In this document: one piece after another, positions 50,659 through 55,128 of the stretch
Numbering within the stretch: position 1 is the stretch's first letter
Layout of the letters: each line of letters starts with the position of its first letter
Source of the DNA: Hyphobacterium sp. CCMP332
GTDB lineage: Bacteria; Pseudomonadota; Alphaproteobacteria; Caulobacterales; Maricaulaceae
Direction: 5' to 3'
NCBI RefSeq assembly: GCF_014323565.1
Contig: NZ_CP058669.1
Coordinates: forward strand, 1,391,501-1,455,500
DNA length: 64,000 nucleotides
Notes under the pieces: model-generated
What the model was told of the DNA's origin: nothing
Seen by the model: the letters and a program-made list of their open reading frames with translations, nothing else
Databases searched by the model: none
Translations under genes and position numbers: made by a program

Positions 50659-51525
50659 TCAGATTTTGACGTTTTTGCGAGGGTTGTATCCCGCAGGCGG
50701 TGTCCAGCCCGACAGAAAATCCCTGAGTGCGGAATCGTCCGGCACATCTATCATCAAGCGTACGATCTGATCGCCCGGTGTCTTGCCCTTGCGTTCAATG
50801 CCACGCCCCTTGAGGCGAAGCAGCGAGCCGGATGTTGAATTCGGGGGGATTTTGACGTCGACATCACCGTGCAGGGTCGGCACCCGCACCTTGGCACCCA
50901 GCGCCGCTTCCTGAATGGAAACGGGAAGGTCGAGCCGGATGTTATTGCCATCGCGGCTCAACCAACGGTGAGATTTGACCCTCAATGTGATCAGCAAATC
51001 GCCGCTGGGGCCGCCTTGCTGGCCTTTCTGGCCCTGGCCGCCCAATCGAAGCACCTTGCCATCTTCGACCCCCGCCGGGATTTTCACAGACACTTTCCGG
51101 CCATCCGGCAAATGAATGAGCTGACTGCCACCTTGAGCCGCGGTCGCGAACTCCACGTCCAGCGAAGCCGCCAGATCACCGCCGCGCTGTGCTCGCGGGG
51201 CATTTGCGCCAAAATCACTGAACAGGTCAGAAAATATATCGGTGAATTCACCACCCTGCCGGCCCGGCCGGGCGGACCTGAAATGATGGTGCGGTGCGAT
51301 CTCATCGCCATTGGCGTCAATCTCGCCACGGTCATAGCGGGCGCGTTTCTTGGCGTCGGAGAGCAAATGGAAAGCCCGGCTGACTTTTTTGAAGCGCTCT
51401 TCGGCAGTCGCATCATCCGGATTGGCGTCCGGATGCAGCTTTTTCGCCAGCGCGCGGTAAGCCGACCGGATCTCGTCAGGGGAGGCGGACTTGGAAATGC
51501 CCAGTATCTTATAAGGATCGCTCAT
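50659..51525 (-). CDS. DnaJ-type co-chaperone without zinc finger (CbpA-like)
   Basis: The protein has 288 residues. The J domain at 1-68 has the HPD motif at 31-33. A Gly/Arg-rich linker follows, then two DnaJ C-terminal client-binding domains (about 120-270) including LRLGGQGQKGQQGG and RLKGRGIERKGKTPGDQ. The four CxxCxGxG zinc repeats of DnaJ are absent, which places it in the CbpA/DjlA-like class II set. It stimulates DnaK ATPase in the cytosol. A strong hairpin ends four bases before its ATG. It is separated from the PepSY gene by 51 bases. Confidence 0.9.
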   Translation of the reverse strand: MSDPYKILGISKSASPDEIRSAYRALAKKLHPDANPDDATAEERFKKVSRAFHLLSDAKKRARYDRGEIDANGDEIAPHHHFRSARPGRQGGEFTDIFSDLFSDFGANAPRAQRGGDLAASLDVEFATAAQGGSQLIHLPDGRKVSVKIPAGVEDGKVLRLGGQGQKGQQGGPSGDLLITLRVKSHRWLSRDGNNIRLDLPVSIQEAALGAKVRVPTLHGDVDVKIPPNSTSGSLLRLKGRGIERKGKTPGDQIVRLMIDVPDDSALRDFLSGWTPPAGYNPRKNVKI

Positions 51526-51567: not shown

Positions 51568-52401
51568 CTATGGAGTAATTCTCATCCAGGCCACGCGGCC
51601 GGGGCCGTAATGCGCGGAGATCTGCTGGACCACGATGTCGAATTCCGGAAGCGGGCTTGAGATCCAGCTTTCCAGTTCCGTCAGCAGCAACTGCGCGGCC
51701 GGCTGGGACACCTCGAACACGTGGCGGGTCTCTCCGGCAACCCTGATCGCGATTTGATACCGCTCGCTATCTTCGTTGAGGGGAACATCCGGTGAGACCC
51801 AGTCATCGCCTCCAATTCGGGCGCGCCGAACCCAGCTGATCTCATATCCATCGGTGACGCGGCGGGCTTTGAGATGGACGGGAGCCAGAGGCTGTTGATC
51901 CAGTCCCTGATAGACGGCCAATTCCGATGAATGCAGCGCGGCATCCGGCGTAACACCCGACGGCAGCGCCATGAACGACATTTCCTGACCGCGCTCATAA
52001 GCCTCCATGCCCAGCGTGGAAACGGTCGCATCCAGCACCACACATCGTGAATTTTCTGGCAGGTCAGTGAAATCGGTGGGGCCATCCGCCAGCAGCCCGC
52101 TCAGACGGTAACGCCGCTCTCCCACCAGCTCGGCATACCGGAATTGCAGCGTGAACCAGCGATTTGCTCCCCGTATCGCGAGCCGGTTGGCACCTGCCAG
52201 AACACGGAGATGCGAGTCAGACGAAAGGACGCCGCCGAACATTTCAACCGTCAACGACTGCGCCTCAACCCATCGGCCATCGGGGATGTCCCCCGGTGCG
52301 GTAATGACTTCACCGCCCGGCGACGGGTTGCCTATGGAAGATCGCGCGCGCCACTCGGCGTCTAAAGGCTTCCAGATGATGCCGTGCGCGCGCGGCGGCA
52401 T
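51568..52401 (-). CDS. Isolated C-terminal fragment resembling the gene transfer agent tail protein gp15
   Basis: The frame from ATG 52401 encodes 277 residues. The sequence from about residue 30 on, with LTVEMFGGVLSSDSHLRVL, ANRLAIRG and FRYAELVGERRYRLSGLL, followed by WVRRARIGGDDWVSPDVPL, matches my memory of the C-terminal end of the large GTA baseplate/tail protein (gp15, about 1,300 residues in Rhodobacter). No head, portal, tail or capsid gene is nearby, and the upstream DNA encodes an HTH protein in another frame. It may be a decayed remnant or a domesticated domain. The open frame has no internal stop. It could in principle be a chance resemblance; a profile search would settle it. 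Confidence 0.6.
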   Translation of the reverse strand: MPPRAHGIIWKPLDAEWRARSSIGNPSPGGEVITAPGDIPDGRWVEAQSLTVEMFGGVLSSDSHLRVLAGANRLAIRGANRWFTLQFRYAELVGERRYRLSGLLADGPTDFTDLPENSRCVVLDATVSTLGMEAYERGQEMSFMALPSGVTPDAALHSSELAVYQGLDQQPLAPVHLKARRVTDGYEISWVRRARIGGDDWVSPDVPLNEDSERYQIAIRVAGETRHVFEVSQPAAQLLLTELESWISSPLPEFDIVVQQISAHYGPGRVAWMRITP

Positions 52402-52558
52402 CGTCCTTCGAATATCGCCAGATCTGATGGCGGACCCAGTTTTCGCTGAGGGCCGTCTGAGTGGCGATATCCTCAAGTGTGGCTCCGGCTTCATACTGAC
52501 GGATCAGCAATTCCCAATCCCTGCGGTCCAACCGCCGCGCCTTCATTTCTCCGACCAT
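52310..52558 (-). CDS. Small helix-turn-helix protein overlapping the tail-like fragment
   Basis: The protein has 82 residues, highly basic. Residues about 18-45 (IRQYEAGATLEDIATQTALSENWVRHQI) read as a helix-turn-helix: Ala-Thr-LEDIA as the first helix and SENWVRHQI as recognition helix. The last 30 residues, rich in Arg and Ala, lie in an overlapping frame with the start of the tail-like fragment. A TATAAA with five bases before the ATG at 52558 suggests a leaderless transcript; an ATG at 52546 with GGAGA too close is the alternative. The DNA target is unknown. Confidence 0.55.
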   Translation of the reverse strand: MVGEMKARRLDRRDWELLIRQYEAGATLEDIATQTALSENWVRHQIWRYSKDDAAARARHHLEAFRRRVARAIFHRQPVAGR

Positions 52559-52664
52559 GCCGTTTTATAGCCCGGTGGCCGCGCGCTCCGGATCGCATGT
52601 CTGAACTAAAATACAATGGTTTGAATTGCTTGGGATTATCTCCGGAGACCTGAAGGACAAGGCC

Positions 52665-53120
52665 TCACTTATCCCCACTTTCGCCCGGCCAGTCCCGGAT
52701 GAAAGCCTCATAATCGGCATCATCGACGCGCATTTCGCTGGTGACCTGACCGCGCACCGACATGCCGGCCTTGAAGGTCGATTGCGGATCTCCGGTGACC
52801 AGCGGGTGCCAGTCCGGCAGGTCCCGGCCCTCATGCACCAGCCGGTAGGCGCAGGTTTTCGGCATCCAGGCCAGTTGCCCGACATTCTCCGGTGTCAGTC
52901 GCACGCAATCGGGCACCCGCGCCGAGCGGTTGGCATAATCGCGGCATTGCCCCGACGCACAATCATAGAGCTTGCAGGACAGCGAGGTCAGAACCCGGTC
53001 CCCGTCCTCATCCTCCAGCTGGACCAGACAACATTTTCCGCATCCGTCGCACAGCGATTCCCATTCCGCAGAGCTCATCTCTTGCAGTGATTTCACTTTC
53101 CAGAAGGGGGCATTGGACAT
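52665..53120 (-). CDS. YcgN-family cysteine cluster protein (UPF0260)
   Basis: The protein has 151 residues. The conserved cluster [14 protein letters not shown] (about 24-37) is followed by cysteines in [16 protein letters not shown] and VPDCVRL. This is the full YcgN/UPF0260 set, which may bind zinc or an iron-sulfur cluster. It is cytosolic and of unknown function. It is divergent from the penicillin-binding protein gene across 55 bases and stands upstream of the HTH gene with 106 bases between. Confidence 0.9.
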
Positions 53121-53175: not shown

Positions 53176-55128
53176 ATGACTGCTTTCAGAGCCGACCTTC
53201 TAGAGGAAAAGCGCCGCAAGCGCGAACGCCGCGCATGGTTTCTGACGGCAGGTTTTGCAGCAACCGTGATTATCGCCGGTATTATGGGCGGCATTTTCTG
53301 GCGGTGGGCCTTGTCCGACATGCCGTCCCTCCCCGCCAATCTTGAAATCCTGGCCGATGTCCGGCGCGAAAACAGCATCACATTGCTCGATATGAATGGT
53401 GCGGTGATTGATGTGCGGGGTCCGCTCTATGGATCACCGGTCGAGCTGGATCTTCTACCCGATCACGTCGCGCAAGCCTTCATCGCCATCGAGGACCAGC
53501 GCTTCTACGAACATTCCGGCGTTGATCTGCGCGGGACCTTGCGCGCTGTCTTTGCCAATCTTCGCGCTGGCGCGACGGTGCAAGGCGGCTCGACCATCAC
53601 CATGCAGCTGGTGAAAAACCTCGTCCTGACGCCTGAGCGGTCCATGCGGCGGAAAATTCAGGAAATGCGGCTGGCCTGGCAACTGGAACGGCGCCTGAGC
53701 AAGGATGAAATCCTGCAGCTTTACCTCAACCGCATCTATTTCGGTGCCAACGCCTACGGAATCGAAGCGGCGGCACGGCGCTATTTCCAGAAATCAGCCG
53801 CCGAGCTGACGATTGCAGAGGCGGCCATGCTGGCGGCCTTGCCCAAGGCGCCCAGCCGTCTGGATCCGACCAGCAATCTGTCCGCCGCAAGACAGCGTGC
53901 GGCCATTGTGCTGGAGGCAATGGAAGAGGCCGGATTCATTACCGCCGAACAACGCGCCGAGGCCGAGGCCAATCCGGCTTCGCCCATCGAGCCCGAGCCG
54001 GAAACCTATCGCGATCCGGCCGTGTTCGGTTATGTCTTCGATTACGCCGTCCAGCTCGCCGCAGCCGAGCTGGTCGTGCTGCCTGCCGACGCCATCATAC
54101 AGGTGACCATTGACGCGGACCTGCAGGAAGCCGCGCACCGCACCCTGACCGCCCGCATGGACGAGGAGAGCGAAGCGCAGGGTGCGGGCGAAGCCGCCCT
54201 CCTTGCGATGACACCCGATGGCGCGGTTCGTGCCATGGTGGGTGGCCGCGACTATCTGGCAACCCAGTATAATCGCGCCGCGCAGGCCCGCCGTCAGCCA
54301 GGCTCGGCCTTCAAACCCATCGTCTATCTGGCCGCCATTGAAGCGGGCGCATCACCCTTCAGCGTCTATTATGACGAGCCTATTGATCTGGAAGGCTGGC
54401 AGCCGCGCAATTTCGGCGGCAATTATCGCGGCCGCGTCACCTTGCAGGAAGCTCTGCGGCGCTCGATCAATACGGTCTCCGCACAGATCATCGACGAGAT
54501 CGGGCCGGAAACCGTTGTCGACATGGCCGGACGACTGGGTATTGAAACCGAGCTCCCGCCCCTCCCTGCCCTCTCTCTCGGCGCGGTCGAAGTGACGCTG
54601 CTGGAGTTGACGGCGGCCTATTCCACCATTGCCAATTCCGGGACGCGTCATCGCGCCCGCTTCCTGCAACGCATCACCAATTCGCGTGGTGATGTCTTGT
54701 GGGAGCATCCGGCCACCGAGCCGGAGCAGGTTGTCGAGGTAGCCGATGCGCTGACCATCTCGACCATGATGCAGGATATCGTCCTGTCCGGCACAGGAAC
54801 GGCCGCCCGTCTGCCGGACCGTCCGACGGCCGGCAAAACCGGCACCAGCCAGTCATTCCGCGATGCATGGTTCCTGGGCTATTCGGCCGACTATATTGCC
54901 GGTGTCTGGGTCGGAAACGATGACGATACGCCGACCAACAACGTCACCGGCGGCGGTCTGCCGGCTCGCATCTGGCGCGACTTCATGATGGCGGCCCATA
55001 ACAATTTGCCGGCGCGCCTGCTGGCGGCTCCGGCTCCGCGCGAACGCTCGGCCCATGAAGAGGAGCTGGCCGCTTTCTATTCCGAATTGCTGAATGCGTT
55101 TGAAGCGGAAGTGAATGCAATCCCCTAG
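53176..55128 (+). CDS. Class A penicillin-binding protein (PBP1A-type transglycosylase/transpeptidase)
   Basis: The protein has 650 residues. A cytosolic basic head and one TM helix (about 23-45) are followed by the transglycosylase domain with Glu106 in IEDQRFYEH and GGSTITMQLVKN. The transpeptidase domain has Ser377-AFK380 in QPGSAFKPIVYL, a SIN motif near 435 and Lys554-Thr-Gly in GKTGTSQSF. It polymerises and cross-links peptidoglycan. The protein is shorter than E. coli PBP1A and lacks an extra OB domain insertion, in line with the shorter PbpC/PBP1 forms. It is convergent with the channel gene. Confidence 0.93.
   Translation: MTAFRADLLEEKRRKRERRAWFLTAGFAATVIIAGIMGGIFWRWALSDMPSLPANLEILADVRRENSITLLDMNGAVIDVRGPLYGSPVELDLLPDHVAQAFIAIEDQRFYEHSGVDLRGTLRAVFANLRAGATVQGGSTITMQLVKNLVLTPERSMRRKIQEMRLAWQLERRLSKDEILQLYLNRIYFGANAYGIEAAARRYFQKSAAELTIAEAAMLAALPKAPSRLDPTSNLSAARQRAAIVLEAMEEAGFITAEQRAEAEANPASPIEPEPETYRDPAVFGYVFDYAVQLAAAELVVLPADAIIQVTIDADLQEAAHRTLTARMDEESEAQGAGEAALLAMTPDGAVRAMVGGRDYLATQYNRAAQARRQPGSAFKPIVYLAAIEAGASPFSVYYDEPIDLEGWQPRNFGGNYRGRVTLQEALRRSINTVSAQIIDEIGPETVVDMAGRLGIETELPPLPALSLGAVEVTLLELTAAYSTIANSGTRHRARFLQRITNSRGDVLWEHPATEPEQVVEVADALTISTMMQDIVLSGTGTAARLPDRPTAGKTGTSQSFRDAWFLGYSADYIAGVWVGNDDDTPTNNVTGGGLPARIWRDFMMAAHNNLPARLLAAPAPRERSAHEEELAAFYSELLNAFEAEVNAIP

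Follow-up and report, generated by a model that had tools for sequence, protein, structure and literature searches.

The g15 fragment and the g1 stub

The stretch of DNA analysed here (the window, 64,000 nucleotides of the Hyphobacterium sp. CCMP332 genome) carries at 51568-52401 on the minus strand an open frame of 277 codons; on the plus strand the same interval is interrupted by stops. A preliminary description of this DNA had reported an intact frame here with several sequence motifs, all of which are present, and had left the strand unstated. It had also assigned the frame to the far C-terminus of gp15/Rcc01698, the megatron of gene transfer agents (GTAs), and profile matches in Pfam, PHROG and the PDB bear this out. 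The 277 residues match Pfam Rcc01698_C (E 1.8e-16), positions 1060-1308 of the 1309 of phrog_4271 (PHROG 4271; E 2e-39), residues 1035-1299 of the RcGTA megatron (PDB 6tba; E 1.9e-17) and, as the best PDB sequence match, the megatron of roseophage R4C (8gtc; E 2.8e-19). Matches of this strength lie far outside what chance would give and establish homology to the GTA megatron. An AlphaFold2 model of the fragment (mean pLDDT 84) likewise resembles 8gtc most closely among known structures (E 1.3e-13, TM 0.69 by query length). Since residues 985-1304 of the RcGTA megatron (Rcc01698, g15) are assigned to the fibre-binding domain (PMC7296036), the g15 piece corresponds to most of that domain. No signal peptide is visible at the start of the 277-residue frame.

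The frame opens with ~8 codons of g1 read out of frame, followed by ~269 codons of g15, the final fifth of this baseplate gene. Upstream it can be extended to an ATG at 52494 (308 aa), the extension again being g1 read out of frame. The g1 sequence belongs to a second open reading frame, 52310-52558 (minus), which lies directly upstream of the orphan frame and starts as the 5' end of GTA g1; it matches L043:577-1044 with 51% identity over 72 residues (E 3e-15). Its g1 part is a 5' stub of 57 codons (52387-52558, minus), from which the frame continues to a stop at 52310. In R. capsulatus, g1 encodes the small terminase (PMC6854486). In the family to which our host belongs, g1 encodes 149-155 aa (L043:577-1044, L036:18525-18974; 5' part at window 52387-52558), with weak matches to helix-turn-helix families in the 5' part.

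The stub is preceded by a conserved leader of 41 bases, a possible promoter, which ends in the g1 start (52553-52593, minus). All its fixed positions are identical in the Hyphobacterium genome and in two relatives (G003 and G006), with one copy per genome. The earlier statement that no other GTA gene lies in the 64 kb is thus contradicted by the g1 stub and its leader immediately upstream. The remains of the two cluster ends, the g1 5' stub and the g15 3' piece, meet with mismatched frames at an approximate junction at 52377-52386 (minus), which we placed to within ~10 bases by aligning the locus with g1 and g15 of H. indicum at both the nucleotide and the protein level.

The intact cluster of H. 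indicum and the rest of the host genome

On one side the fragment is bordered by a dnaJ-like gene (50659-51525, minus), and beyond the g1 leader lie a CxxCxxCC gene (52665-53120, minus) and a penicillin-binding-protein gene (53176-55128, plus). In relatives the first of these is the downstream flank of the GTA cluster, the second its upstream flank and the third the next flanking gene. H. indicum 2ED5 (G003) has a complete cluster (g1, g2, g3, 3.5, 4, 5, 6/7 and 8-15) at the equivalent site, bounded by exactly these neighbours, and intact clusters occupy the equivalent place in other close relatives too. The suggestion that the locus is a former GTA site therefore stands. Two congeners have g15 in two separate ORFs, with the break near profile position 880-950 (L038:10465-11655 in G006, L037:12584-13711 in G004); a frameshift, a sequencing error and a real split are the candidate causes.

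Because H. indicum has a complete g1-g15 at this site and the Hyphobacterium g1 stub is joined out of frame to the end of g15, we read the locus as an internal deletion scar. The missing stretch, worked out from H. indicum coordinates, measures ~12.5 kb and runs from g1 codon ~57/58 to g15 codon ~1025. Very probably, one internal deletion in an RcGTA-type gene transfer agent cluster, likely a recent one, left this scar, and a single illegitimate, perhaps short-homology, event would have removed the cluster.

The host genome (2.69 Mb, one contig, 99.6% complete) holds no match to a functional RcGTA-type gene set (TerL, major capsid, g12, full g15). A genome-wide search of the kind proposed in the preliminary description, covering g15, TerL, capsid and g12, found no second g15 piece, GTA TerL, GTA capsid or g12/DUF2460. 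A protein scan of genome_contigs with the fragment as query gave nothing. Only megatron profile positions 1060-1308 of 1309 were found in the whole genome, so full-length multi-domain gp15 is absent. Elsewhere in the genome there is an intact DUF2793 gene, 71% identical to its H. indicum counterpart. We take DUF2793 to be a domain of the RcGTA tail fibre.

One assembly was examined, and a cluster that is present in the cell could in principle have been collapsed or lost in assembly. We give this the lowest probability of the explanations considered, as the genome is a single, 99.6% complete contig without a GTA TerL, capsid or g12 match anywhere, and similar deletions occur in other one-contig genomes (G021, G074 and G105). 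The deletion scar, in turn, is favoured by the intact cluster at the equivalent site, the retained g1 stub and leader, the intact DUF2793 gene and the comparable deletions in relatives.

The leftover would encode a fibre-binding domain without a baseplate. The internal ATG at 52401 lies inside g1 and has a Shine-Dalgarno-like AAGGA only 2-3 bases upstream, and the fragment is therefore probably translated poorly or not at all. GTA particles should no longer be made by the cell, which may nevertheless be a putative recipient of DNA from the GTAs of others.

Selection on the two pieces and the age of the deletion

Aligned with four orthologues, the g15 piece shows no gap over 270 codons, and it keeps all columns that are invariant in 30 relatives. 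In a branch model its omega is 0.156 on the host lineage and 0.222 elsewhere, a difference that is not significant, and any neutral part of the terminal branch is at most ~10% (2dlnL 4.0 at 0.10, 8.5 at 0.20). The g1 stub served as a control, albeit a short one of 57 codons: its omega is 0.23 compared with 0.21, and omega = 1 is rejected (2dlnL 9.7). Constraint on the g15 piece (0.156) is thus not in excess of that on the g1 stub (0.23), with little power in a comparison that involves a 57-codon stub.

Constraint on g15 alone cannot separate a young deletion from a functional fragment. The g1 stub and the g15 piece have decayed equally little, which a young deletion explains more simply; since the g1 control is short, this is a preference and not proof. 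The open frame by itself needs no new function: the g1 stub has nothing left to package into and no use as a terminase, yet shows as little decay. Absence of stops had earlier been taken to favour either a separate adhesin or a recent loss. The undecayed state of both pieces favours recent loss over the adhesin. The dN/dS analysis that had been suggested as a sign of domestication does find purifying constraint (omega 0.156), which is expected of domestication and of a young deletion alike; the g1 control (0.23) argues for youth.

These data bear directly on the possibility that the C-terminal domain of g15 is produced by itself and maintained by selection, for example to bind a partner on the cell or the fibre-like DUF2793 protein that the genome retains. 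An open frame with an omega of 0.156, the retention of every column invariant in 30 relatives, a model that folds with a mean pLDDT of 84, the retained DUF2793 gene and ~12 remnants among relatives in which the g15 part is open would all agree with such domestication. We nevertheless consider it unlikely, given that the g1 stub is as undecayed, that the fragment is out of frame with g1 and has only an internal ATG with a poorly spaced Shine-Dalgarno-like site, that no signal peptide is visible, and that the remnants of relatives differ in length and frame. For the first three of these reasons the proposal of a separate adhesin or binding protein is not upheld either.

A further explanation holds that what is kept at the 3' end of g15 is a DNA element, e.g. 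a promoter that drives the downstream dnaJ-like gene, rather than the protein sequence. In five congeners the intergenic stretch between g15 and dnaJ is indeed short and well conserved, and the deletions of relatives end inside g15; however, codon-level constraint along 270 codons is left unexplained, a simple promoter scan found no sigma-70-like site in the g15-dnaJ stretch and no more than chance in the region, and a deletion that stays within the cluster will in any case spare the end of the cluster's last gene. We regard this explanation as very improbable.

GTA disruptions in relatives and known cases of loss

A g15 match was found in 89 of 98 genomes of the family. Besides the host, about a dozen genomes carry g15 pieces with upstream genes missing or rearranged, mostly through internal deletions; the match in G032 was left out of this count, its locus (L042) having no dnaJ, RR or GTA neighbour. 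A capsid stub adjoins g15 in G002 and is in frame with it in G030; g2-g10 are followed by g15 in G074; TerL is in frame with g15 in G105; a transposase-like gene lies between in G009, and G015 is rearranged. Missing or rearranged upstream genes also mark the g15 pieces of G106, G011, G021, G092, G023 and G019 and that of G038, from a sister family. Two in-frame fusions with the g15 end, TerL-g15 (L047:8325-9848, 507 codons) and capsid-g15 (L040:8657-9955, 432 codons), contain no stops. Genus g19 (G025 and G067-G071), G064, G065 and G099 gave no g15, GTA capsid or TerL match, which points either to GTA losses that are older or complete or to genes too divergent to be detected.

The GTA loss in our host is independent of losses in several relatives. 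G011 and G021 have an identical TerL-g15 junction; shared ancestry was rejected as the reason, as the tree groups each with its own intact congener and the events are independent. A short TGG..GAyG sequence that TerL and g15 share can account for the identical junctions. In five genera (L132, L133, L134, L135 and L136) the upstream breakpoint lies at most a few bases away from one particular TerL codon (~165, AW.D; Walker B region), with different g15 partners, and in G009 the transposase-like gene sits at this breakpoint, a possible hotspot of breakage or insertion. An intein or homing endonuclease at the site was dismissed, as no insert is seen except the transposase-like gene in G009.

The examined g15 spans of 12 remnants, host included, contain no stop. 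Neutrality along the entire branch, at a conservative rate of 0.5 synonymous changes per codon, would predict ~273. The spans were chosen as open frames, which favours this outcome; in G092 a single stop lies upstream of the span, within the profile match. No stop interrupts the TerL and capsid stubs of relatives either. For the other remnants, synonymous sites were mostly saturated in three-species omega tests, which were not used; G009 did not fit. The pattern calls either for deletions that are young throughout or for constraint on the pieces; that the remnants vary in length and frame argues against one shared protein function. An even spread of deletion times over the branches would make so many undecayed remnants in the family surprising, unless their carriers are short-lived or the pieces constrained.

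How costly, self-sacrificing GTAs persist against non-producing cheaters is an open question. The Hyphobacterium locus offers a mapped loss beside the complete cluster of a sister species, in a family that holds about a dozen comparable disruptions, and whether such deletions stay rare and young, i.e. are purged, or spread bears directly on that question. Tentatively, and with somewhat more doubt than conviction, we suggest that GTA-negative lineages in this family could be short-lived cheaters, with deletions that arise repeatedly and independently and carriers that vanish before the scars decay. If true, this would account for the fact that nearly all remnants show no decay and are restricted to one species each.

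Several known systems invite comparison. With the RcGTA megatron (PDB 6tba, 6teh) the fragment shares the sequence match, the Pfam C-terminal family and, in relatives, the last position of the cluster, whereas the iris, adhesin-like, peripheral and central domains of that protein and all other structural genes are missing from the Hyphobacterium locus. The roseophage R4C megatron (PDB 8gtc), the best match to the fragment in both fold and PDB sequence, differs in being the full-length tail-tip protein of an infectious phage, the Hyphobacterium piece being a C-terminal fragment. RcGTA g1, the small terminase (PMC6854486), is the first gene of its cluster and adjoins TerL, and the Hyphobacterium stub is a homologue of the H. 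indicum gene in this position; the stub gives weak matches to helix-turn-helix families, whereas R. capsulatus gp1 is reported to be without this motif (PMC6854486).

A literature search found no paper joining Hyphobacterium and GTAs. GTA loss itself is known: the available part of one account describes pseudogenised or lost alphaproteobacterial clusters, with recurrent loss in several lineages and possible cheaters (PMC10883770). Recurrent loss is common to those cases and ours, and that part gives no mapped junction or age. What is new here is that the scar has been mapped, that the g1 stub provides a control and that disruptions across one family, undecayed, species-specific and mostly independent, have been counted; to the cases in that part of PMC10883770, the Hyphobacterium locus adds a mapped junction, a control within the same scar and a family-wide count.
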